64,000 nt of DNA from Branchiostoma floridae. Lineage: Eukaryota > Chordata > Leptocardii > Amphioxiformes > Branchiostomatidae. The stretch covers positions 8,357,858 to 8,421,857 of the forward strand of contig NC_049987.1 in NCBI RefSeq assembly GCF_000003815.2. The letters run 5' to 3'. Below are positions 1,773-57,793 of this stretch, piece by piece (position 1 is the first letter of the stretch; each line of letters starts with the position of its first letter). The position numbers and the translations under genes were made by a program. The notes under the pieces are model-generated. The model did not search any database. It was not told where the DNA came from and saw only the letters and a list, made by a program, of their open reading frames with translations.

Positions 1773-2798
1773 GCTTTGTTGAGAGGCATTTTTGACGAAA
1801 ATCGCTAATTTCAGTTCCAACGAAGGCTTCTGTTTCAAATTTATTTGCTATATTACTGCTATTTTCTTACATGAATACAATTCCATGTAATCTAGAATAA
1901 CTCTCATAATTCAATATGAGTAGATAATGCTAATTTCATGACGTCATCGGACAAAATACAAAATGGCGGACCCTATTACCTGATCATGAATAACTAGCTT
2001 ATTATCTCTTAGAATTTGTTACTACCTGGTGTTTTTTCATTACCAAAACATTTAAATGAACGTTTTTAGTCTATTTCCATTGTCAAATACACAAGTATCA
2101 ACAAATTTCATGTTACTCTATTGCATATTGTGACCTGCAACGTATCTTGATAAAGTGTACAATGTGTTCATAATCTGGTCTGTGTAGCAGTGTTTTAAAG
2201 GTAAATGTGTGGTATGTACCTTTATTGAAATGTGGTTAATGTGTTGGTGTCCTATCTGTAGATATGTACAGCATACAGTGTTATTCCTTTCCCTAGCCAC
2301 AACTGTATTAGTTGGTCTCCAGGTTCTAGACTTCTCCTCTTTGAATTCAAAAGGAAAATTGAGCAAAAATGAGACTGAAAAAGTGAAAAGGAGCAATTCT
2401 TTATTTTCTGAAGTTAGCATTATGTCAATAAAGCTGTGTTGGTTATGTATGAAGCAAACAAATCACTACACCTGGGTGAATGCCAGCTATATTTTAGTTA
2501 ATTAGTAATTTCAATTTTTTTGTCCAAGACAAAAACTAGATATAAATTGCCATTAGTTATGAATTGTGATGTTCACATTTTTCTATTCTATCTATTTATT
2601 TATTTCATTGCAAAAAGGATTTTGCTTTAAGATGTAAGTAAACTTGTGTTTGCAATCCTACAAAGACTTCAATTTAGTAACCATAGCGTAGTACTAGTAG
2701 GAATAGATTGTACATATGCCTAGGGCTTCACTCCTCAGTATTTGACAAATGGACTATTTGTCTTTTCTGACTGTTTCTGACTAACCCATCCGACATTG

Positions 2799-2976
2799 CC
2801 CATGTGACAGGTGACATTGCCCATATGACAGGTGCCATTGCCCATATGACAGGTGCCATTACCCATGTGACAGGTGCCATTGCCCATATGACAGGTGCCA
2901 TTGCCCATGTGACAGGTGCCATTGCCCATATGACAGGTGCCATTGCCCATGTGACAGGTGTCATTACCCATGTGAC
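2799..2976. repeat. 21-bp minisatellite downstream of gene A
   Basis: Eight full units of the type CCCATRTGACAGGTGCCATTG plus a partial ninth. Units tend to alternate ATATG and ATGTG. The paralogous site downstream of gene B (about 15012-15063) has only two units and a partial. Confidence 0.93.
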
Positions 2977-3502
2977 TGTGGACTGTACATTGCTTTTATT
3001 ACATGTAGTTAACGTTACCCATGTAATTCCTACAGAAACACAAATATATCTTATCACTCCATGTGCCCTATAGACACTATTTAAAAGGCTTTAAAAAGGC
3101 TTCAATATGTATGTTAATCTCCAAATCTCTAGTGATATTAGTTATTACTGTGTAATGTTGTCTCTTACAAATGTAGAGTAGGTCCAAGTAAAGTAAAAAT
3201 AGACGCGTGGACCTGCTTATGCCATTGTACTCGTATTGATTAATGTTGCACCAATACCGTCTGATTTAATGAAATATGACACAAAATGTTGTCATGTTCT
3301 AAGCGATAGTCTACTAAGTCATACAATGCGTCAAATGGGGATCACATGACATTGTAAATGATTTTGATAGTTGGGTGATAGAAATGTATCATAGATCAAG
3401 TCACAGTTAATGCCACCTGGGCCTAGCCTATAATGGCGTTCCATGTTGACGGTTCCATGACTGTTCCCCTTGCTGTTGCAGACAGGAATGTTGGAGTCAG
3501 TT

Positions 3503-6500
3503 CTAACATCCATTGGGACCAGAGGTGCCCTTGCCGTCATGGGGTGGCAGTGGTGGGTCTGGGTCACACTCAACTGTGAGGAAACAGAATGTCGTCAACA
3601 CAATGGCTTTTAAATATTTCTAGTAGATTGTAACTCCCTACGAATGCATACTTGTCCTGTTGTGACGAGAAAGAAGACAAGTAACGATACGATTGAAATC
3701 ATTAAACAACTTGGCAGCGTTTGCCTCGAAGGAGGACAGTCAGGTTACGTACTCGGTTTGTTGGGGAAGACTTTTATGACATTTAGTCTGTGATTTTGTC
3801 CTGGCCTAGCCTCCAAAGCAGGCTCTGTAGGCCTTTTCGTTGTTTTTTTGCTCACGATACATTTTTGTTGGCCATTCTTTTTTGTACTGGGTGTTCAGCA
3901 CAAAGGGTGTTAGGAGCAATAAAAACACGACAAAGTCTCAGAGAGCCTGCTATGGAGGTTAATCCTGGCGTACACATGTGCATTGCACTTTAATGACAGT
4001 ACCTGTTTTCATGGCTATGTTGTCATGGCCGTCCTCAGCAGTTGTCTCATATTTAGTCTCCCTTCCCCTGCGTTTGGGAAGGAGGATCTTCTCCAGTTCC
4101 AGGAAGGGAACCTCCGCCATCATGGAGGCAGCAAAACCACACACAAGGGACATGAAGGAGAAACTCACGAACATGAACCACTGCGGGAACAAAAGAACAA
4201 TGATACGACGATGGATATCCTTATTAGTCTTACAGTTCAGAAGTGGGTTCATACATAGCTTTGTTATATAAGAAGTGGGTTACCAAACTACATGTACGCC
4301 ATGTAAATCTGGTTGGTGTGCTTTAATTTCTCTCTGTAAATCGTGATAAGTGTCTTACCCACGTGACGGCTGAGTACAACCATGGGCCCTTGTAATCCAT
4401 GTAGTAGGCCTGTATGATTATGGGATGGACGAGGTAGGCCGTGTAGGACAGGCGACTTAACGGCAGCCAACCGCTCCACGACAGGAACTCCGAGATGATA
4501 CCTGCATAAGGGTACCACAGTTACATAAATCACTATTTTAGCACACATGTACACCTAGCTTGATAAAATCATGCTTCTAGCAGCCCCTCCACTGTTCCGG
4601 GTCCTTGAGGTTTCATTGTTAACACCTGTAAGTCAGGGGAATTGGGTACACCTTAATCCTGCCAAACGTAATGATTTGCAGACTGAGAACTTTTTATAAC
4701 CATGATGCTATGGGCTTGAATGACTGGTTTCTATAGTGACAGAGAATTCTTAGCTCCCATTGATTTCATTTGATAAAGAATCATGAGTCGTAGTTCTGTA
4801 AATAGGAATATTTCTCTCAAGTTAGACATCTATGGTCATAAGCCCTGTCAGCGAAAGATTGTGTAACACAAGCTACATGTAGTTTACCTCCGTATCCCAC
4901 ACAGCAGGCGTACACAACCCAAGCAACTCCTGCAGCAAACAAACTTCTTTCAAAAGTTCTCCAGGCAGCATGGCCGAGGAGGTTGGCTTCGGGAGCACCG
5001 AATGGGAGGTTGGCTTCGGAAGCACCGAATAGGGTGACCAAGGCCACCAGGGCGCAGGTAGTGCCAACAATCCAGCCTAGCAACATCAGCTTCTGCAATA
5101 TATACAGAGTGATTCATGTTACCACAAGCATCTATGGGGAAATTACTAGAATAGTCAAAAGTTGAAGGTAGAAGAAAGACGAGTCGACCAGCAAATAACC
5201 TATAGTGTATGTTCTTGAGTGGTGACTTTGTATGTTATGATATTATACGTGTATATGTTATGTCATAGATACATAGTGTATCACATACAAATTTACCACC
5301 CAAACACAATTCTTAGCCTCCTTATCGGAATGTGTGTAAACAGAGGCTCCCATCAGGATCTCTATCGGTAGAATTTGCAATTCTGCTAGATCTCATTCTC
5401 CACCCCAACATTTAGTATTATACGTACATTGTATTTTTGTATCATACATGTATGTCAACCTATTGTGTGTATTATAATCGTACCCTTGCATTAGGAGTGT
5501 CCGGGACTTTCCTGTCGGTCCTGAAGAGCAGGTAGCCCAGCAGTATGCCGATAAGGTATGAGTCCATCCTGATGAACGACCAAGTCGTGAACCTATAGAA
5601 ATTCACGCTACAGAAAAAAAGAATCACATGTTGTAACATAATGAGTATCATTGTATCTTGTTTAACAGTAACGTTTGATCTGAAAGAGAAAAATGTTTTA
5701 TATGTATATAAAGAGAGAGATAGAAAGTTTTGCATATTTGAGATGCTATTTCAAATATCCTAGATACTTACTCGACCAAGAAATAGTGTAAAACTCCATT
5801 CAGAAGCCAAGTGGATCCGATCAAAAAACAGGCAACTGCAACTCCAACTTTTGGGTACCTACATGTAAACGGCAGACGAAAAGTTCGTAAAAATCACGCT
5901 TTCAAGAATCTGTACTAATGAGTAATGTAAAAGACACTGTGACGTTATGTTGTTTTCATGTTTAAAGCCGTAAGCCGGCCAAGGAGTTTCATAGTGAAAG
6001 TTGCAGTTTGAATCAATTTTTACCCCACACTTACCTGTAAAGCACTACGAGCAGCCCTGTAAGTGTTACGTACAGCTGCATGTCCACACCAAGGTACCAG
6101 GCATGCGGAAAACACTGAAAAGGTGTATAGTAAAATACTGCTTGTTAGAGTGCTTCTTGCAATATTTACTGCCAACTATTATTTCTATATCTGTAAGCTG
6201 ACTTTGACTCAGCAAGCCACTATTCAAACGCATATCTAATGATTGTGAATATGAAAGGGTATACTGGGGGATTGGGGTTCCAAACCTTCAACAATTACTC
6301 TCTGCCCCATAGAGCTATCTACAACTCAAACATAGCATAACCACAACACAAACTATCAAAGCCAGAACATACGCTGTAGTACTTTAGAAAGTTGCTTGGG
6401 GGGCCATCATCATGTTTGTTTTCATCACTTACCATATATCATATGGATCCATCCACAACGTCCTGAGACGAAAAGAACTGAAAACATAACCAACCTTCTT

Positions 6501-9500
6501 GGTAAATGTAAATATTTGAATCTCACCTTATATCCAACATAGTTGTTGATGTAGAGCAGGTTTGCCCACCAGTACTCCCGGCAGACTTGGACTGTAGACA
6601 TGGTGAAAGCTATGGTCCAGTTGTCACGGACAGCCCACCACGGTCCAGACCCCATGTACTCCATCAGGCACGTGGAAATCATGAGCAGGAAGGCGAACAC
6701 TGGCGTCAACCTGGGCATACCAACCAACACACGTACTGAAATACTGAATGCGATCGCGTGGGGTCTACAACAGAATAGATAAACTGTCTTTTACCTCAAT
6801 TTACAATGATTATTTTGTATGTACACCGTGATTTCTTCATGTAAATTGCCCTACCTGAAGTAACAGTGTATTGCGTGTAAAACATAGTTTTCCCAGATAA
6901 ATTACCATGCCTCAAGTGTACGATATTTATACCATGGTCTGCCCATGTAAACTGTCCTACTTGGAATAACAGAGTAAGAAGTGTAGACCATAGTCTCTCC
7001 ATGTAAATTGTCCTGTCCTTTGTAGGTCTTGCAATACCCCTGTCACATTAGGACGACGATTCTGGGGCAATCACCCGAGCATCGCTTATAATAATAACTT
7101 TATTGCACAACAATTGTACAAGGTACAAAGTGTGGCTTATATGTAACAGGGACGGTTTTTATTTGAAACATACGCGCAACGCTCTGTCGATCTTAAAAAT
7201 GGCCGATCTTCCATCGATACGCCCGAAGATCGTCAGATCATGTGACAGGGCCCAGGGGTATAAATCATGGAGACCATAGTCTCTCATTGTAATCTGTCTT
7301 ACGTGAAATAACGGTGTAAGACGCGTAGACCGTAGTCTTTTCATGTAAACTGTCTTACCTGAAATAACGGTGTAAGATGTGTAGACCGTAGTCTCTCCAT
7401 GTAAACTGTCCTACCTGAAATAACGGTGCAATACGTGTAGACCGTAGTCTCTCCATGTAAACTGCCCTACCGGAAATAACGGTGTAAGACGTGTAGACCA
7501 TAGTCTCTCCATGTAAACTATCCTACCTGAAATAACGGTGTAAGACGTGTAGACCGTAGTCTCTCCATGTAAACTGTCCACCTGTCTTCTTCATCTGCTT
7601 CATGAAGAGATACGTCACCAACAAACCACTGGAAGATGAAAGTCATACAAGAAGTCTACAGAAATGGATAAATCATTGATATAGCCCCATTGCCATTATA
7701 GAGATAGCTTCATAATGATTTTCCAATTGTAGTTAAATAAAGAGTTACGTTTCATGTACAACTTATGTTGTAACAGAAAACAAACATCACACGTGTAAGT
7801 GCAATTATAGAGTCTTAAATGTCAGTCAACGTGACATTATTCAAATGTAGAAACTGCCAAGTGTCATGTTCCTCTGACCAAAAGCAGGTGTACGCAATGT
7901 ATTGAGAAATTTGTTTCTTTCTGGAGACTTGGTTTAGAAGCTAACGTATACATACCTGAGCAGAAGGAATGTGTCGACTGCCATGCCATAGTTAACGCGG
8001 ATGATCAAGTACCACCACCGCTCTCGATCTTCCACTCTTTCAACCTCGTTAGCTGTAATCAATAACTAGTGATGTTTTAATGCTTTTTGAAACCCATCAC
8101 TGGTGCAATCAATCAACTTAGGACTGTTTTCTACAAAGCTTTTCAGATACTAGATAATAAACTTACAGCTAGATGATATGTAAAGGTTATGTGTAGACGT
8201 TCGTTCAGTGTTGTTTAACCATCTACTGCCGCGCCGAGTGCCTGTTAAAACTGGACAAGATGTAATTGCTAATGTTATAATTCTATTTGGCAAAATATAT
8301 ATCTTTAAAAACCGGGAGACATCGAATCTATCCATCCACATGTTTATTGCCTTCGTTAAATATGTACATAAAATGGAAAAAAATATCGCAACAGCTAAAA
8401 ACTAAATAAGTCAACATAACAAAAAGAGGGAACACTTATACCTGTTTCTGTAATATCACTACCACAAGTACTTACCTGTCAGTGTATGTGCACCTGTATG
8501 TTCTTGTTTAAGTTTTCTTGTATTTCTTTTTTGTTTTGTTTATCTGAATAAAGTTTGAAAAAAATTTTTTTTAAAAAGTGGACAAGATGTGCTACGCCCA
8601 AGGGCAGCTATAGGGACCACATCACTTCTTCGTGAAAGGACACATTTTTACTTGCCTTTATCGATGCGGTTAAAGTCGTCTGAGTGTCCAAAAATGATCC
8701 ACAGTGCGCTGATAACCCGAATGCCGTGAAGCGTCGGAAGTTGTCCGGGGTGCTGGTACGTGTTGAACACCTTCTTCGTGTTGGAGTACACCGAACAGGA
8801 CAGACAGAACCGACCAACTCTAGCTGTCAGTTAAACAAACAATGAAGTAAGTAATTGAGGTTTTTATTCCAGGATAGAAGAAACTTTCTGTTTACGTTTA
8901 TAAAGGGATACAAGAAGGTTAAAATAAGGTTTGGGGTCATTTCAACTTGTACTTGAGAAGGATCAGAGTACTGATTGAACGCTTGTTGGTAAGCGCCTTA
9001 CTTACTTTGCGGAAACAGTGCCGAAACCTTTATAATATGATTACAGTCGCAGTTAAACTATCATTATCATATAGCCAGGCTTTGCTCACTCGGTGGTTTT
9101 ATTCGAAGGTTATAGCAAAGGATCAGGCGTTATGACACCATATACTCCTCGGGGCGGACCATTAACCCTTAATTAAAAGACACTTACAGGTGGTAAAAGG
9201 TTTTCGCTCCTCCTCAGGAAACCGGATTATGATGAACAACTCATAAGATGTGCTGACTGCGAGAACGCAGAGGAGGATGGCGATAACAGCTCTGTGGCAT
9301 AAGGTAAGCTTGACGTTGGCAAAACGTTGTAAACTCAGTCACATATTACAAGCATTTGCACGAACCCTATGAAATACGTACGAATGTTATGTGACAAATC
9401 ACTGCGAAAATGCACGAATCTTATGAAAATCAAATGAATCACCATGCGAAAACATGCGAACCTTAAAGCCCCCTTCACACGAGAGCACGAATGAGCCGGA

Positions 9501-14683: not shown

Positions 14684-15011
14684 AACAAATCACTTCACTT
14701 GCTGCGTGAATGCCAGCTACATTTTAGTGGATTTTAAGGACCATCGATCATCAGGTTAGTGATTTCTATTTTTCAATCCAATTTGACAAAAACTGGATAT
14801 AAATTGTCATTAGTCATGAATTGTGATGTTCACATTTTGCTATTCTATTTATTCATTTCATTGTGAAATTTATGTACAATCTTACAAAGACTTCAATTAA
14901 GTAATCATAATGTAGTAATAGATTGTACATATGCCAAGGCCTTAAGCTCCTCAGTATTTGACAAATGTACTATTTGTCTTTTCTGACTGTTCCACTACCC
15001 ATACAACATTA

Positions 15012-15063
15012 CCCATGTGATAGGTGCCATTGCCCATGTGATAGGTGCCGTTGCCCATGTGAC
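15012..15063. repeat. Short 21-bp minisatellite downstream of gene B
   Basis: Two full units and part of a third of the same 21-base motif found at 2799-2976, in the duplicated flank. GATAGG replaces GACAGG in the units. This is the short allele-like counterpart of the larger array. Confidence 0.85.
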
Positions 15064-18600: not shown

Positions 18601-21600
18601 CTAATGTAGCAGACATTTCTGTGGAATCTAAGAAATATTCGGCGTTATCGGTGTTATGTTGTTTTCATTTAAACGTTACGTAAATAACAAGCCATAAGCC
18701 TGCCAAGGAGTTAGGTAGTGAAAAGTGCAGTCTAAGCAATTTTTCACATTGGGTCACTAACCTGTAAAGCACTACGAGTAGCCCTGTAAGTGTTACGTAC
18801 AGCTGCATGTCCGCACCAAGGTACCAGCCATGAGTAAAACACTGTTAAATGGGAAAACAGTGATTGTTAGATTTTTTATAATGTAAACGTCGGAGATGCC
18901 TTCCATAATCAAGGGCTATTAAAAAATGCAAATCAAAACTCTCTGCCCCAAAAAGCTAGATCTACCACTCAAGCATCGCGACCATAGCATATCCACAGCA
19001 CGAGATATCAAAACCAGAAATTCCGCTGCAGTACCGGTACCTTAGAAAGTTGCTAGGGGGCATTCTCATCATGTTTTCCCCACCTTAGACCCACCTACCA
19101 AATATCATATGGATCCATCCACAATTTCCTGACAAATCAACGGCACTAAATAACTTTCTTGGCAAAGTAATTATTTGACCTCACCCTTTGTCCGACAAAG
19201 TTGTTGATGTACAGCAGATTCGCCCACCAGTACTTCTCACAGTTTTGCACAAAGTCCATGGTGAAGTTATCACGGATAGCCCACCATGGCCCAGACCCCA
19301 TGTACGCAATCAGGCACGTGAAAATCATGATCAGGAGGGCCAACACTGGTGTCAACCTGGGCATACCAACCAACACATGGACTTTAGTACTGAATGCTTA
19401 TACCCCTATGTGTCTTGCGTGTGGTCAACATCGAAAGAGACCCAACGCAAGATAAGGCACATAGACCATAGTCTGCCCATATAAACTGTGCTACCGGAAC
19501 TAAGACTTGTAGACCATAGTCTTTCCATGTAAACTGTCCTACCTGAAATAACGGTGTAAGGCGTGTAGACCGTAGCTATAGTCTCTCGATGTAAACTGTC
19601 CTATCTGAAATAACGGTGTAAGACGTGTAGACCATAGTCTCTCCATGTAAAATGTCATACCTGAAATAACGGTGTAAGACGTGTAGACCATAGTCTCTCC
19701 ATGTAAACTAACCTACCTGAAATAACGGTGTAAGACGTGTAGACCGTAGTCTCTCCATGTAAACTGTCTTACCTGAAATAACGGTGTAAGACGTGTAGAC
19801 CATGGTCTCCCCATGTAAACTGTCCTACCTGAAATAACGGTGTAAGACGTGTAGACCATAGTCTCCCCATGTAAACTGTCTTACCTGAAATAACGGTGTA
19901 AGACGTGTAGACCATAGTCTCTCCATGTAAACTGTCCTACATGAAATAACGGTGTAAGACGTGTAGACCGTAGTCTCTCCATGTAAACTGTCCTACCTGA
20001 AATAACAGTGTAAGACGTGTAGACCATAGTCTCTCCATGTAAACTGTCCTACCTGAAATAACGGTGTAAGACGTGTAGACCATAGTCTCTCCATGTAAAC
20101 TGTCCACCCGTCTTCTTCATCTGCTTCATGAAGAGATACGTCACCAACAAACCACTGGAAGATGATATTTGAAATATTTTCAAATACAATTCAATCTCCA
20201 CAATTTCATCGTTGACATCTATCACTCTTCGTCAATGTCACTACATTGACACTGAAGAAGAGTGATGGATGTCACTCGAAACGTCCCGAAGTAAATCCGT
20301 TTTAATCCAGTTGTAGAGATTGAATTGTATTTGAATATTGTTTACCTGGATGTCTAACCATCATAAATGGATGAAAAGTATGTTTTGAAGCTAAGCACGA
20401 AGTCTATAGACATGCATAAATCATTGATATAGTCCCATTGCCATTGCAGAGATAGGAGCATAATGATTTTGCTATTGTAGTGCAATCAAAAAGTACTTTC
20501 TAGATTTATATTGAAATAAAAGACAAACATCACACGTGTAGGTGCAATTATAGAGCCCTGAATGTTCCATGTGGTCAGTCAACGTGACATTGATGAAATT
20601 GTATGCTAGGTTTCATGTTCGTTTGTGCAAAAGAACTCATGATGGCCTACGTGATATATTGAGAGTTATTTGGAGACTAAGGTTAGAGGCTCGCGTATAC
20701 GTACCTGAGCAGAAGGAATGTGTCGACTGCCATGTCATAGTTACCGCGGATGATCAAGAACCACCACTGCTTTCCATCTTCCGTTTTTTCAACCTTGTTA
20801 GCTGTAATCAATAACTATTAATGGTTTAATGTTTTTCAAAACCTATAACTAGTGCAATGAATCGAAGGCAGCTGAGAAAATTGTTTTCTACAAACCGTTT
20901 CAGATACAAGATAATTCGAATTCACTTACAGCTAGATATGTAAAGGTTATCGGTAGAAATTAGTTCTATGCTGTTTAACCATCTACTGCCACGCCGAGTG
21001 CCTGTTGCCTGTGGAAGCAGGGCCAGATGACTTAGGCCGAAGGGCCGGCTACATAGATACAGAGAGAACGAAACACGTATAGATCACTTGTTCTTGAAAG
21101 TCAATTGACATTGATACTTGCCTGTGTCGATGGGGGGAAAGCCATATACGTGGCCATAGATGATCCACAGTGCGCTGATAACCCGAATGCCGTGAAGCGC
21201 CGGAAGTTGTCCGGGGTGCTGGTACGTGTTGAACACCTTCTTCGTGTTGGAGTACACCGAACAGGACAGACAGAACCGGCCAACTCGTGCTGTCAGATGG
21301 ACAAACAACGGGGCAAGCAATTGAGAGTTTTATTCCGCGATAAAAGAACGCTTTCTGTTCATAAAGAATACATCAAGGTGAAAGTACTTGCATCAATATC
21401 AGGCTTTGGGTCACTTCAATTGCACTCATATGGAAAGCTTGTTGGCAAGTGCTTTACTTTGTGTACGGTAATAGCGCCAACGCCTTTATAAGATAATTAC
21501 AGTCACGATTAAACTGCCTTTCATAGACACTTACAGGTGGTAAATGGTTTTCGCTCCTCCTCAGGAAACCGGATGGTGATGAATAACTCATAAGATGTGC

Positions 21601-32300: not shown

Positions 32301-35300
32301 GGAATGTTCCTCTCTACAGCTAACAAGGAGGAAAAGGCGCAAGCTAGCGACGAGTGGTGGTACTTCATCAAAGGAAACATGGACATGGCAGTCGATACAT
32401 TTCTTCTACTCAGGTACTGTACGAAACAACGTCTTCTATCACAGAAACAAAACACTGTTTTCTCTTAGAATGCAGTATCGTCACAATCGTACGGCAAACT
32501 TATGTAATACCTAAAGCAAACCATAATTTTTCATGACCATTTGACTCATGCATTCAATCCCGAGGTATCGATTTTTCTTTTGTTTCAACTTAAATCGTAT
32601 ATGGCAGTTCTCCAAAAGATGCTAGCTTTCTGTTTGGATTGTATTGCAAAACACCTTCTATCTCAGTGGAGAAGAATTCACCCTGCATCTACCCCTCAAG
32701 GGATTCATGTATTATTTGAAGAATTATCATGTTTTTTCTTTATCTTCCAGTGGTTTGTTGGTGACGTACCTCTTCATGAAGCAGATGAAGAAGACGGGTG
32801 GACAGTTTACATGGAGAGACTATGGTCTACACGTCTTACACCGTTATTTCAGGTAGGACAGTTTACATGGAGAGACTATGGTCTACACGTCTTACACCGT
32901 TATTTCAGGTAGGACAGTTTACATGGAGAGACTACTATACTGTCTACACGTCTTACACTGAGGTAGGACAGTTTACATGGAGAGACTATGGTCTACATGT
33001 CTTACACCGTTATTTCAGGTAGGGAAGTTTACATGGAAAGGCTATGATGTACACGTCTTACACCGTTATTTCACGTATAAACTTTTGCATTTTGGTGGTG
33101 TTTTAACGCAAGCTCTTTGGCAAAATATTCATAGTGGGAGGCTGTGTAGTGTATCTAATATTGGTCTACAAAAATATGGAATGTCTGGTTTCTCGTGGAA
33201 CTAATGAATTTTTTCTAACAAATTAACCTGAAAGGACATCATTAAAAATATTCATAAATGTATTCTATTCCCAGGCTGACACCAGTATACGCCTTCCTGA
33301 TCATGATCTTCACCTGCCTGACGGTGTACATGGGGTCGGGACCGTGGTGGGCTCTCCATGACAACTGGACCATGCCGAGTGTACGCGCCTGCCAGACGTA
33401 CTGGTGGGCAAACCTGCTCTACATCAACAACTATGTCGGACAAGGGGTAAAGCTATATCCATTTGAAATATGTATCGAATTGGATAAATAGTCCTTACTT
33501 TCTTTCATTAAGGATTTTTCGTCTCCTTAATTCTATTAGCCTCCTTCGCAGACTTCTAGCGAGGCTGGCTTTTAAGCCAGTCGCTCGAAGTCTGTAAATG
33601 AGGCTAAATCTATCGATATCATATATCCCACATACACACGCGTCCAGACACTTATTTAAATGCCAGATTAGTATTAGCACACACACATACATGTAACGTT
33701 ATATGTACCAGATACTTGGTGACATGCACGATAAGCAGTCCTGCATTTACATGTATTTCTTAATTCAACAAGAAATCAACGGATATTATTAGCCATCCAG
33801 GTGATAAGGTACACGATACAAAAATTACTGAAGAAACTGAATCAGACACTGACAAAAGAATGCCATCTGAAATGTTTGGTCGTGTACAGACGTACCCATT
33901 AGCTTAAGTAATTTTTTCGTGTTGCAAATCAAAGCATATTTGTAAATCTTATACAGTTTTATCCTTTGTTGAAATAGTGTTTCGGCCACGGCTGGTACCT
34001 TGCTGTGGACATGCAGCTCTACGTGAGTCTTGCAGGGGTTCTCGTGATACTATACAAGTAAGTCAAGTAATGTCTGTGAAATAATTAATAAAGAAGAGCA
34101 TCTTAAGAAGTTGCACAACTATCACATTTAGTCCTAACTTCTCATATGCATTCATAGTCGACGAAAACAAGAAAATAGTTGAACAAACAATTTGCTACAA
34201 CCCTTGCCCATAACATATGAGAAAAGAATTTCTTTTATCTTTGTCCAAAGCAAAGTTGTTGTTACATTGTATTTTTCTTCTTGCTCTCAAAATACTGATA
34301 ACGTAAAGCGCCATCGTCATCAAGTCTTTCTGTTGCCCTTCAGGTATCCAAAAGTAGGAGCTGTAATCACCTGTAGTCTTATCGGGTCCGGCCTGTTCCT
34401 GAGCGGAATCCTGTATCATTTCGTAGTCAAGTACGTATTAAGTGAAAAATGAAAACATTTCAGAATACAAATATGTTCCAGACTTTGCGCTGTTCGTATG
34501 ATTTGCTATTTGTAATGATTTGTTCGCGTATAAAAACTTCTTGTTCATTTTCTTTGCATTCCTCCAAGAGCCACATTCGTAAACTATTTTTCTTCAATAA
34601 TCAATGGAACAAAACGTTTGCCCATCACTAATCTTTTTCTAGTTGTGAATAATCGACATTTCTTCAAACACTGCAATCCCATGATTTAGGCCAGCGTCAC
34701 ATTTCCAAACCGGGGCCCGGCCGGGCTGTTTGTGGAAACAAAAAATAGACATGTATACGTCAAAATGTACACAAACAATTCCCACGACTATTCTCTTTAC
34801 GTCTTTTGTAATTTGATATCCTTTACATAATGCTTTTTGCTTTTCGTTCTCGAAAGCTGCCCGGCCGGGACCCGGTTTGGAACTGTGACGTAAGCCTTAG
34901 GCTTAGGTCACATTTCCTACCAGGGGCCCGGCCGGGATGTTTTAAGAAACGAAAAATTAAAATGTTTACCTAGAAATATACACATATCATGCCTATGTAC
35001 CTTATTTTGACATTTTGTGTATTTTGATGTCTTTTATGTCATTCTTTTCGCTCCCCAAAACTGCCCGGCCGGGCCCCTTTGTGGAAATGTGACTTTAGCA
35101 TTAAAAGGACACGGACTACTTGCTACAGCTTATCGAAATGTAGAACTTCAAAGAGCTATCAAAGTCGCGCATTATTTTACTTAACTGTAGTGAGGGTGGC
35201 GGGGACTATGTTGGCACCACGTACCAATGGACGATTACCAGGATGGCGCCGTACTTCATTGGGATGCTGCTCGGGTACTGGCTTTTCAGGACCAACAGGA

Positions 35301-42600: not shown

Positions 42601-45600
42601 TTTTGCACAATCATTAAAAAAGTTAACATAAAACAAATTAAAGGATGAAGGTACATGCAGGGGGGAAGAAAAAAGCCTCGTGGCTTGTACAAAGTCTTCC
42701 TCCAAAGTAACAAGATTGAATAGACGTGTAAAAATTATACATTAGACAATAATGTAACCAAAAGAATTAACAAAATGGAAATAAATCATAATAGTTCAAT
42801 AATTGATTTTGGTTTTTTTGGTATTGGCCCACTCTACCCTTGTGCCAAATTTCAAGTCATTTGGTCCAGAAACGGCGGAGATGAATCGCTTTGAAAATTC
42901 GACAGGAGAAAGAAAGAAACATTACGAATACAATATATTTCACCATACCTATGGTATGGCTGAAATATAATTATCTAAACTGTTTTACCCAAGTGGGTAT
43001 TTTTACAACATGTAGGATGATTCCAACTTACATCTTAACAATTCTTTTCCTTCAGCAACACATATTTTCCTGTCCTTCTCGGTGCTCACCAATGCGAGGA
43101 AGGTGTTCAGTCTAAAGACAACACCAGGACAACTTCCTGCGCTTCACGGCATAAGGGTCATCAGTACCCTCTGGATCATCTTTGGGCACACCAACTTCTT
43201 TACCATTGGCAACATCGAAATATGTGAGTATCTTGTCCAATTACAAATAGATATCCAGGTGCATGCAATGATCTATTGACAATTTATCGAATGTGAGAGG
43301 GCAGGCTGCCCATAATGAGAAGGATACATAAGGTATTGTCAGGTGAATGGAGGGGGTCAGACGAGAGTAATTCTTCTAGGTTTAAATGGGATATGGATTG
43401 CAACATATGGGTCCTTTCAATATTGTATAGCTCACAATGTAACAGGTAGTGCTCAGTAGTCTCGTTTGAAGTCATGTTTGCTATGCATACTAGTATGGTA
43501 GGTATGGAGTTTGATCACCGGCTGAGTCATACCAAAGACTTAAAAAGTGGTACATGTTGCTTTTTATGCTCAGCACTCACCACTGAAAGAGTATTGATAG
43601 TAAAACATGCACTACTACCAGTGGATGGACCCCTATTGTAAAGTTGTGTGGCCCATGGGCTATAGAATTATGATGGGCACTACCTTATCTATAATTAGGC
43701 ATCATGTATGGTACGGGTTGGGAGGACTTAAACTTATCCAAATAACAGCTGATTTAATCTTTTTATAGATCATTGAAATTAAAAAAAGAATATAAGTGAG
43801 AAACATTGATATGACATTTGGACCACTCCTGACGTTAATGGAAAAATAAAATCTTGTATATAATAATGAGATAATGATTAATTCTTTCAGCTAACAAGGT
43901 AGAGTTGGCTGGTGCAAATAAGGAGTGGTGGTACTTCATACAAAACAACATGGACATGGCAGTGGACACTTTCCTCTTGCTCAGGTATTGCTAGATAACA
44001 TGACAGTCAATGATTTTCATGTAAGATGTACTTATTACTACTGTTGCACAATGTTAGATTAAGTGTCTTTAGTCAGTTAAGTTTAATCAGTAAAACTGTA
44101 AAGATTGTGAGTTTTAAAAAAGACCTTTTTTATCTGTTCTCCAACATTATTTTTAGATGCTCATTTTCTTCTATGCATGGATGGATCTGAATGAGACAAA
44201 ATGCATCCCACCATTAAAATTTCCAGATGAAGATGTGACATTATTTTCCTGTTGTATCCTCAGTGGTTTGCTGGTTACGTACCTGTTCATGAAGCAACTG
44301 ACCCAGACTGGGGGTGTGTTCACATGGAGGGACTATGGTCTGCACCTGTTACACCGGTACTGCAGGTAATACACTGTCTCCTGTTGACCTAGACTTTGTC
44401 CTTAAAAATAGATTATCTTACAACAAATTTGATATCGTATAGTGAGTGAGTATTAGGAACAAGAAGATTTACAACAAGTCTGTGGCTTCTCCTGTTGCCT
44501 GACATTGTGTGGAGCACAGTGTAAATCAATTTTGAAATAGAAAATTAAGTACTAGGCATTAGTACATTAGCCAGGCACTGCCACAATGTTTTAATTTCTA
44601 TTTCACCTAACAGAACCCCTTCATAGATAACCCATTTTCTTGTCATTTTCAGGTTGACACCAGTGTATGCCTTCCTCATCATGATCTACACCTGTCTGTT
44701 GGTGTACATGGGAGATGGACCATACTGGGCCACGCCTAGCAACTGGGTCATGCCCGGTATCCATGGCTGCCAGCATCACTGGTGGACAAACCTGCTCTAC
44801 ATCAACAACTACTTTGTGGACTCAGGAGTAGAGGTACCTGGTATAGATCTTCATTATCAGTTATTCAGAAGTATAAGACAGGTGCTCACTGCATATTGGT
44901 GCCCCTTTGTGTTTCAATGGATTGTAGCTCCAGTGTACACAACTATTTGGCAATGTGTGTTTTATTTGCAAGGCTTTACTCTTCTGATTTTTTTCTTATT
45001 TGAACTGTGCACATTAAAGTGGATATTTGAGAAGGTCAGGACATATTTAAATGTCAAAACACTTGAGCTACCAGTATATGATTTATTGAATTGTGATTTA
45101 TCAAATATCAAATGCAAATAGGGACACCAGCATGGCGGAGGAAACAGTCACAGATGACAATGTCACCTCAAAATGCTCTCCAGTCAGTTACTGTATTATA
45201 CCAAACACTCTCATGGTAGCATTGTTAACCTACAGCCAGTGTATTGCTGAAATACCTTATGTTCCAATTCATGATAACAGACATGTCTTCTTCCCCTTGT
45301 GCAGTGTTTTGGCTGGGGCTGGTATCTTGGTGTCGATATGCAGCTGTATGTGATGATACCAGGAGTCCTCCTGCTCCTGTACAAGTGAGTTTTCTACATA
45401 TTGACAGTATTGCCTGCAACCCAAGTAATGTCTGTTACCAGTACTGATCGTACCCCACTTAATGGTACTAGTAACCATACCCCCTGTAGTATCCATACTC
45501 CCAGTACTGTCTGTACCCGCAGTAGAGTGCGTACCCCAGTAGTGTCCGCACCCCCAGTAGTGTCCTTATATATATATACAGAAAGAGAGAGAGAGAGAAA

Positions 45601-54400: not shown

Positions 54401-56523
54401 CCGTCTCTACAAAATACCGCAGCCAGGGCGCCTTTACCTAGGGCAGTATTTGGGAGTATGGCAAGATAGTAAACATGGGTTAGAATAGTTGACCATTGGT
54501 AGGAACCTCTCAATTTAAAACGTAAAAGTTTAGTCCAAATTTGAAGTCGTTTTACAAAGACGCTTTACATTTGCAGTACAATACATTATGGTACATACCC
54601 TCATGACCTGCCCCCTACTCGCTGAAACGGCCTCGTCACTTGCCAGCTTCGCAGCACCCAAACCGCTGCAGTTCACAACAACATCGTAATGTGGCGCCAA
54701 CTGCGAGAAAAAATCCAAATACTAGTAATCTGGCATGAGATTTGTAACACAATTGCATTACACGAAAACCAATCAATCAAGCAATTAGGTAGCACAATGC
54801 CTGCTGTCCGTACCTGTTCCAATGAGTTCACTTTTCTCTGCACGAAGCCAACTCCTCTCTGAGTCAGTCTATGAAGCAAACGAGAAAAAAAGTAGTTTTG
54901 TAAGTCCTGACTTTTATTTGTCGTTATTTTTTTTACAAAGCAATAACACGACAGGTCGTTTCTGGTTTTGCATCTGCGTTTGATGTCATTGAACGAGTCT
55001 CCTACCTTTTCTTTGCCCACGGTAAGAAGTCTCTAGCCTGGCATATGAAGGTAGTGTAGAACCATCCTTGTCTGGAAAACATCAGGAAGCTTAAAGTATG
55101 TCATGATTTGAGTAATTAAGCGACCTCTGTGACATAAAAAAAAAGAGTATTTCAATTGTGGTGACGTCTTGCTCTAATAGAATACAGACAAAAGAAGCAC
55201 CAAAAAATACTTACTAGTACGTTCTAGCGTATATCAACTTTGTAACATGACGTACTTGTAACCAGGAAACAGGTTGGTTAGCTCCCACGGGGTGACATGT
55301 CGGAACCCAACGACAATGTCTTTCCAGGCCGGGTCCTGTAGGGATGAAAAAAAGACATTCCTAATAATAGTAATCCATCACACACTGGGCTTACAATGTA
55401 CTTATATTTTTGTTTGATTTGTTTGTTTGAAGCTTTGTCTATTATGAGAAGCTCCAATCAGCCGGTTTCCATTGAGGTCATGAGGGAAGAAAAAAGGGTC
55501 ATACAAAATATCACAAAGATGCAGATTATTTTGGTAAAACCCGTAAACATTTTAGACCCTTATATGTAAGACTACACCTTTTTATTCGTAATGCAAGGTT
55601 AAAAGTTAAAGGGCGACACATGAGTGATTGGGTCTTTAGTACTTTTACGTACATGTAGTTTGTCCCTTTCGATATGTTAGTCCCTACCGGTATGGGGTCC
55701 ATGTGGACGATGTAACCCGGCTGAAGGAAGATGCCGGCTTCATGTGCGTAGCTTGTCCGGAGAACCGAAGTCAAGAAGTCAAAGGAATCCTGTAGCCGCT
55801 TCCTGGTACGTGCAAGTCACGGTCAGAAAGGATATAAACAAAAACGTTTACAAATCTTATCAAATATCTCACATGCAGTGAAAGTATGTAGATTGTACAA
55901 CGGCAAGTTTTACAAATATTGTAAACTTTGCTATTGTAACTTACTGACAATTTCAAATACTTCACAAATTATTATCTAGGTAATCATTTTTCTTGCTTCT
56001 TTATCGCATGAATGTGCAATACATATCGAGGAAGCCGTGTCCTACTTGCTATGAAAAGGATGGTCCATGGTCTTATTGTTCAGAGTATACCTATCCCGGC
56101 CCTGAACACTGTACGGTAAGCGACACATCACGCAAAAGAGATATATCCACAGAACTTTTCATAGCTTCTGTTAAATGTGCAAGATCTGCTTGGAGCTATG
56201 TAATTGTTAAGACAACGAGTAATTTATAATCACATACAGAAGTTTACTTAGCTCCCGTTAAATGTGCAAGATTTGCTCGGAACTATGTAATTGTCAGACA
56301 ACGAGTAATTTATAATCACATACAGCTCTGCGTGAGTCATGTGCTCCTGTGACGGCGGTTTCCACAGACCTGCCGGTCCGTAACTCGCCATCGTGTTGTC
56401 CGGACAAAACTTCTCAGAGATGACTGTTAATTCCAACTGCCCATGCGCAGACGAACACTGCTCCATGATGTGCAGGGCAGAGGTCATACCCACAATTCCT
56501 GCTCCTACGACGGCGACTCTCAT
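51445..56523 (-). CDS. D-aspartate oxidase-like flavoenzyme (interrupted by an assembly gap)
   Basis: FAD-dependent D-amino acid oxidase family; expected to oxidise acidic D-amino acids to 2-oxo acid, ammonia and H2O2 in peroxisomes. Exons in transcript order: 56523-56324, 55802-55688, 55335-55256, 55071-55006, 54868-54814, 54700-54599, (missing), 54087-53970, 52346-52239, 51564-51445. The N-terminus MRVAVVGAGIVGMTSAL is the Rossmann FAD fold. WKDIVVGFR, DVVVNCSGLGAAKLA, VIGGTRQTGN, WTGFRPMRDGGIRLERE and VVHNYGHGEAGVTW follow in family order. GGTRQ and NCSGLG favour D-aspartate oxidase over D-amino acid oxidase. The protein ends in SRL, a type 1 peroxisomal targeting signal. Exon 6 ends in phase 0 but the next exon needs phase 2, so one exon of about 20 codons is missing, probably in the N gap at 54162-54261. 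Known coding length is 964 bases, consistent with about 340 residues in all. AG just before the ATG suggests a 5' UTR intron. Confidence 0.85.
51867..52065. mobile_element. Second copy of the GTTCACCTTTATCCG MITE, oxidase intron
   Basis: Left GGTTCACCTTTATCCG, right CGGATAAAGGTGAACTAG, with inner GGACGGTGGTTTCAAAT and its partial inverse. Same family as 46850-47041. Confidence 0.85.
52459..53537. mobile_element. 1.1-kb TIR element in an oxidase intron
   Basis: ACCTCCATGAAAAT near 52472 is matched by ATTTTTTCATGGAGGT at 53519-53534. Inside are several AATTATGCAAAT units and two dispersed-repeat modules with CTAGGGG...AGAGCTATCTA. An ACACAGACAC run lies near the right end. There is no coding capacity. 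Confidence 0.7.
54162..54261. other. Assembly gap of exactly 100 N
   Basis: A run of 100 N is a conventional placeholder for a gap of unknown size. It falls in the intron region where one oxidase exon is missing. On the minus strand, 54,355-54,405 reads RFYIYGP, which resembles the expected segment, but its phases do not fit the neighbouring exons. Confidence 0.99.
56181..56324. repeat. Direct duplication at the exon 1 donor of the oxidase gene
   Basis: About 57 bases ending TAATTTATAATCACATACAG occur at 56181-56237 and again at 56268-56324. The second copy includes the true 5' splice site (minus strand CT|GTATGT), so the first carries an intact duplicate donor 87 bases downstream. Confidence 0.88.
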
Positions 56524-57793
56524 TTTGCTAAAATGGATATTTATATTTATAAAAAAATTATTCGGCATCCGTACAGGTGAATACAAGAAACAGAAAGAAA
56601 GAACTCTTATCTGTAATAGCCACCTAGATGCTCTGGCAATCGGCAGCAGAGTCAATACTGAAAATTCGTATCCATGACGATAATGTGACATAAGATAGTA
56701 ACATATATCGATTGTTGTGCCAATGGCTTCGTACCTTAGGCGTCGCAAAGAACGATGACATCATACACATTCCATCTTGTATGGCCTCGTCCTACATAAT
56801 GCTATGCAGTACATTTGTTGTGAGGCGTCAACAATTGTCCACTAGTTGAAATTGCCGACAGGTACAGAGAATTCTTGTCACAGGGGTGTGACAGAGTACT
56901 ATCCGTAGTGACCTCACCTAATCACATCAGACCTCAATACTGAGGTCTAGAAAATGATCAGTTACAGTTGTGAGGTGGCTCCCAAAATCGACGACACGTC
57001 CCGAGTAATTACATTATGTAACGTTATACAGTCTAACCTGTATTAGCGGCCACCATTGCATTGCGACCTTGTCGGTCCCTTGTATTCGTAATGATTAAGA
57101 AATAGGCTTAGCGGCCACCTGTCCAACGTGGCCACGGCCACACAATTTCAGGTCCCGTTGATACAGAAACACTGCCAGCAACCATACTGCAGCCTTATGT
57201 CACCCTGCACCGTGTTTGAAATTGTAGTTTGCGAGGATTCGGAGTTCCTAGCAGGGTCATTTGGGCGGTAGCAGAAGGTATGCATGCCTTGTCATCAAAA
57301 GTGCAAGTCTTTGTCGGTGAATTTACCGATCGAGACAATGTTAGGGACTGGTCGATATTTAGCGGGGGGGGAGGGCCGGTCGTCAGAGGGTCGGGTCAAA
57401 AAATTTTTCCTAGGCCCTCCCCCCAGGTCAAAAAATTTTTCCTAGGCCCTCCCCCCAAGTCAAAATATTTTTCCTAGGCCCTCCCCCCTCCTATAAAATT
57501 TGAGAAATATTAAAGACGCCAATATATCACTGCGCTCCCGCTTGGAAATGTCATTTACGTCATACTTATGCTACTGGTTTTCATCGCGAGGCAGATCTCT
57601 TACCCCTAGCAAAAAAAGGGAAATTGAATGGCTCGGAGCCCATAAATATATGATTCATGGAGGCTACTGTGTTCTTCTGATATTCATAAATCCACTCTAT
57701 CCAAACAACGCCACAAACTGAGTATTTTGTACCTGGATTTCTAGTAGATTTGCGCCGCTTCCCGGCGCGCGCCCCGCCCCTTTACTTAACGCA

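Follow-up and report, generated by a model that had tools for sequence, protein, structure and literature searches.

A probable mirage-type minisatellite, with splicing most likely unaffected, in an old intron of amphioxus NRF-6-like genes

In a 64,000-nucleotide stretch of the Branchiostoma floridae genome (contig NC_049987.1; hereafter the window, in whose positions all coordinates are given, with the strand stated for each locus), an intron opens with a long series of copies of the exon end and donor site that precede it. What placed these repeated splice junctions there, and does splicing make use of them? Four NRF-6-like acyltransferase genes lie in the window: A and B are read from the minus strand, C and D from the plus strand. 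The series was noticed in gene B, whose conserved pieces match Pfam NRF (E 2.2e-9) and Acyl_transf_3 (E 1.4e-14). Sequence comparison leads us to consider it most likely that the array is a minisatellite of the mirage type, that it lies in an old intron and that it is inert in splicing. Mirages have been reported from amphioxus as minisatellite-like tandem duplications of exon-intron boundaries (PMC3087553, PMC3902484).

The unit of the gene B array is made of the last 53 exon bases plus the GTA of the donor. Its exon copy (20105-20050) directly abuts the intronic array, so that the tandem unit spans the exon-intron boundary. The exon ends ...TTTCAG|GTAGG at position 20053 and codes for the conserved segment HVLHRYF|RLTP; because GG is present at both joins, the unit can also be written as 51 exon and 5 intron bases. 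Unit-by-unit alignment places ten intronic units at 20049-19492 and a partial eleventh at 19491-19453, one unit having a 6-base insertion and another missing 8 bases, and the array takes up 600 of the 696 intron bases. Tandem Repeats Finder, applied to gene B, returns a 56-bp array at 19501-20105 (10.7 copies, 92% matches). A 28-base core of the unit occurs at 19 places in the window, compared with 0.00 in 100 shuffles, and these places fall in three arrays.

This anatomy bears out much of the original prediction, which had been made from the letters of the window. It had described ten tandem copies of the exon end and donor after the real donor, a junction from 20053 to 19356, which agrees with our gene model, and units that multiply the donor and set AG directly against GT. 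It had also described AG as running into GTAGG in each unit. That holds for the majority in a looser form: CAG|GT is intact in seven of the ten gene B units, but the bases after CAG vary between GTAGG, GTAAG and GTATG. The exon concerned is block 7 in our numbering and exon 8 in the earlier one; a 5' exon may have been missed.

The same array, not mentioned in the original prediction for gene B, is found at the same intron position in genes A and C, the three introns being 816 (A), 696 (B) and 422 nt (C) long. The gene A array begins near the exon with four full units and one that is partial, continues into a 242-bp insertion and ends with decayed units (7014-6780); no inverted repeat of at least 12 was found in the insertion with default settings. 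We searched the genome from which the window comes (513 Mb in 431 contigs) for the 28-base core and obtained 46 places, of which 19 are those of the window, 9 lie in gene Z (L009), 8 kb to the left of the window, 17 in gene Y (L010), on another contig, and 1 in gene X (L011), which neighbours Y. Gene X has decayed units only, with matches of 28 and 37 nt, and a search of 9.9 kb did not reveal its homologous exon. At the remaining five loci, the number of intronic units differs between paralogs and runs from 4 to about 23. Judged by coordinates, the part of the intron occupied by recognisable units is about 86% in B and Z, about 85% in Y and 53% in C; the share in gene A is 62%, or 88% when its insertion is left out. 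A test of 50 exon segments showed extra copies of the array exon alone, in A, B and C.

Paralogs that have the intron and not the array put the two in order of age. A search of the genome with the exon peptide gave ten full-length homologous exons; those of A, B, C, Z and Y have the array, and those of gene D, three on contig C14 and one on contig C7 do not. In D and the other four array-less paralogs the intron stands at the same place and in the same phase, with no exon copies in about 1.5 kb downstream of the exon; the sequences L018-L021 also contain no tandem repeats. Because five paralogs have the intron at this position without the array, these comparisons indicate that the intron is older than the array.

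Within the array, age follows position. The divergence of units from their own exon copy increases with distance from the exon in A (p 0.0014), B (p 0.00098) and Z (p 0.010), and the gradient is significant when A, B and C are combined (permutation p 1e-5) and when all five arrays are (p 2e-5, or p 0.002 leaving out decayed units). Exon-near units look alike in all array genes. A unit near the 3' end of the intron matches between Z and X at 53 of 59 positions, and between Z and A likewise at 53 of 59, whereas these same far units match the consensus at only 39-41 of 56 each. Since the matches between genes exceed those to the consensus, the far stretch is older than the separation of A, Z and X, three genes found on two contigs. 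The exon-near units are thus the freshest, the far units are the most decayed and paralogs on two contigs have some of the oldest in common, a pattern that points to renewal of the array next to the exon.

Gene Z indicates that the exon itself takes part in this turnover, because its exon copy is identical to the third unit and both differ from the second by two bases. One of these two differences alters the protein, from HRYF to HRYL. The change in Z could have gone in either direction, and a two-way exchange between intronic copies and coding exon is a tentative idea that we hold to be somewhat doubtful. Substitutions in the units are spread evenly over codon positions (17/14/14).

In the more distant gene C, the exon and the near units were probably acquired by gene conversion, because silent divergence drops locally. 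Outside the array exon, C differs at silent sites by 0.44 from A, 0.46 from B, 0.40 from Z and 0.31 from Y; within it, the values are 0.15, 0.05, 0.15 and 0.05 (Fisher p for array exon against the rest 0.015, 0.0002, 0.048 and 0.023, respectively). Comparing the array exon with the twelve other exon blocks gives p 0.03 for A-C and p 0.0007 for B-C. Genes B and C also have an identical run of 28 codons over the array exon and the start of the next exon (permutation p 0.0002). Constraint on silent sites is an unlikely cause of the low divergence, since gene D differs from A, B, C, Z and Y by 0.56-0.70 in the same exon.

Are the repeated junctions used? The original prediction took each unit border as an acceptor and donor at once and proposed ratchet splicing, alternative donor choice or inclusion of 56-base units. 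We scored splice sites with a simple position matrix built on 43 donors and 41 acceptors from genes A to D, branch points being unscored, and counted over the 22 intronic units of A, B and C. The donor half of the proposal stands, as 11 of the 22 unit donors score at least as high as the authentic CAG|GTAGGA. The acceptor half fails: with 3.25, the usual unit acceptor stays under even the weakest of the 41 real acceptors (3.31, a small margin; median 9.42), its score is reached by about 15% of the 3756 AG in the window, and 21 of the 22 borders fall below every real acceptor, only A03 beating the weakest. AG|GT is intact in 14 of the 22 units, which together with the good donors favors a role as recursive-splicing points, or as alternative donors or 56-nt cassettes of regulatory importance. 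However, the four bases of the motif, out of 56, received 7 of 46 substitutions in the 18 less decayed units (binomial p 0.04 for enrichment) and 8 of 98 across all 22 (p 0.40), which argues that AG|GT is not conserved relative to the rest of the unit and is, if anything, mutated more often. Any product that adds unit sequence would also stop at once: a stop codon comes directly after the exon in all 18 modelled later-donor products and in all 75 modelled cassettes (57 with AG and GT at their ends). Three units do keep the frame in length, as had been pointed out, but they would not rescue the protein because every added unit meets a stop. The intron of gene B is, moreover, just 696 nt long, and a long host intron is a usual, though not a strict, feature of recursive splicing sites. 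Recursive steps between AG|GT sites, which would not alter the mRNA, or leaky use of downstream donors may occur, but we regard a recursive or regulatory role as quite unlikely, and most of what was proposed for splicing is left without support from the sequence.

A different possibility is that the units act as leaky decoys, with strong GTAAGA donors diverting splicing into stop-carrying transcripts that reduce the output of the gene. The CAG|GTAAGA donors of B04, B06 and A04 do score 11.2 compared to 7.82 for the authentic one, and every extension stops at once, yet amphioxus mirages with splice signals are described as harmless to regular splicing in the available text of the reports (PMC3087553, PMC3902484); we find such an effect unlikely. 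The array might instead have made the intron itself. An AGGT-bearing exon segment in tandem is what the tandem genomic duplication model of intron gain would predict (PMC4974935, PMC3443670; in the parts available, the proto-splice word is AGGC in the fission yeast paper and AGGT as cited later), and in both cases copies of an exon stretch with the proto-splice word end up inside an intron. Here, in contrast, the intron appears to have pre-existed and to have been enlarged by the array from the donor side, and birth of the intron from the array is very improbable given that D and four more paralogs have it at the same position without the array, unless they gained it independently. Assemblies are prone to copy-number errors in tandem arrays, and the exact copy number of the arrays is uncertain, but an artefact is hardly credible for units that differ from each other, decay in order and form equal arrays at five places on two contigs.

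Several observations weigh against an inert mirage-type minisatellite as we describe it. Clean use of the first donor is assumed, even though half of the unit donors are at least as strong. Taken alone, the distance gradient is not significant in C (p 0.6) or Y (p 0.17). Silent divergence from C is low in exons 5, 12 and 13 as well, so that conversion is not special to the array. Finally, the exon-intron RNA of gene B has a better fold than every one of 20 shuffled versions (z -2.88), a result to which we attach no interpretation.

How does the array compare to known systems? In the available text of PMC3087553 and PMC3902484, mirages are reported with units of 10-72 bp in Adh3, about 150-160 bp in the globins BflGb6 and BflGb9 and 60 and 108 bp in PGBD5, as well as in troponin C. 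Many, but not all, of their units keep AG/GT, outer units escape homogenisation, the clusters are unstable in length and RT-PCR (reverse transcription PCR) suggests that regular splicing is undisturbed. The NRF-6-like array resembles them in a unit that spans the exon-intron boundary, in AG/GT kept by many units and not by all, in homogenised inner and diverged outer boundary units and in a 56-bp length within the reported spread, and in BflGb9, too, it is the 3' boundary of the exon that is duplicated. It differs from them in its gene family, in the number of recognisable units that a single intron can contain (up to 23) and in being common to five paralogs and a remnant, with an age gradient and a probable transfer to the more distant gene C. 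The array thus has the sequence features of mirages, and the parallel with those of amphioxus is drawn by likeness. Among the papers that our searches listed, no title or abstract opening describes this array, or the gene family in a mirage context. Recursive splicing sites, including distal exonic ones, share AG set directly against GT at the exon end (PMC10156609, as far as its available text goes), unlike the present array in its weak acceptors, short intron and unconserved motif. Tandem exon duplications with mutually exclusive splicing (PMC6071210, in the part available) likewise originate by tandem duplication of exon sequence, whereas the units here are partial exons that have no intron acceptor of their own and cannot be read in frame.

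We suggest the following history for the mirage-type minisatellite. The array would have arisen in a gene ancestral to A, B, Z, Y and X, when a 56-bp stretch, the last 53 exon bases plus GTA, was duplicated in tandem at the donor end of the old intron, perhaps between two short GGT words at the ends of the stretch. The upstream copy would stay joined to the exon and its donor would become the working one, leaving the older copies in the intron and the mRNA and protein unchanged. The array may then have kept growing and homogenising beside the exon, with a coding exon cleaned by selection as template, as far units decayed, and the exon and near units would later have been copied by gene conversion into gene C. 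Splicing most likely joins the first donor to the ordinary 3' site and takes out the entire intron, and the additional AG|GT sites would serve no positive function; later donors may see some leaky use, leading to a premature stop.

Table 1. Positions of the array, its exon and its intron in the four genes of the window
Feature	Position	Strand	Remarks
Gene A homologous exon, with the unit's exon copy	7527..7628	-	
Gene A exon-near intronic units A02-A05 and partial A06	7257..7526	-	
Unrelated insertion splitting the gene A array	7015..7256	-	about 242 bp
Gene A decayed old units	6780..7014	-	unit 6851-6790 is matched in genes Z and X
Gene B coding exon (block 7)	20053..20154	-	102 nt; last 53 nt (20105-20053) are the unit's exon copy
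Gene B intronic array	19453..20052	-	ten 56-bp units and a partial eleventh
Gene B array-carrying intron	19357..20052	-	696 nt, phase 2, GT-AG
Gene B following coding exon (RLTP...)	19191..19356	-	part modelled
Gene C homologous exon, with the unit's exon copy	32751..32852	+	
Gene C intronic array	32853..33077	+	four units, 225 of 422 intron bases
Gene D homologous exon	44264..44365	+	without array
Gene D intron	44366..44652	+	same position and phase, without exon copies

Other features of these genes were seen along the way. The intron preceding the array exon of gene B contains a nested palindrome (20176-20338) with 28-nt outer arms and an inner hairpin with 28-nt arms; it is probably a small mobile element, because it is missing from the alignment of A and B. 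Exon block 5 ends at apparent GC-AG introns near 8657 in A (donor AAG|GCAAGT) and 21123 in B (CAG|GCAAGT). A 21-bp array, CATTGCCCATGTGACAGGTGC, stands at matching places 3' of the two genes (2794-2976, 8.7 copies; 15007-15062, 2.7 copies), and coding exon block 11 of gene A has an in-frame 27-bp tandem duplication at 4978-5030 (2 copies, 96%; SEANLPFGAPEANL). Gene Y is probably a pseudogene, since about 1.2 kb of inserted sequence (L010, about 2550-3757), rich, by eye, in GGATATCCAGGA words and with a 42-bp array, interrupts the exon that follows its exon-derived array. Elsewhere in the window, the start of a minus-strand open reading frame (56248-56760) is similar to FAD-dependent oxidoreductases (Pfam DAO, E 4.6e-5, a match that does not reach the curated cut-off).

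If the array is indeed a mirage-type minisatellite, the NRF-6-like family would be added to the gene families in which such minisatellites occur. It would make the ageing of an array visible within one genome, with new units by the exon and old far units common to paralogs. The five loci, with their 4 to about 23 units, would form a natural series in which to study how the spliceosome settles on a single donor when many are near-identical, and may be equally suited to asking whether intronic copies feed changes into the coding exon.
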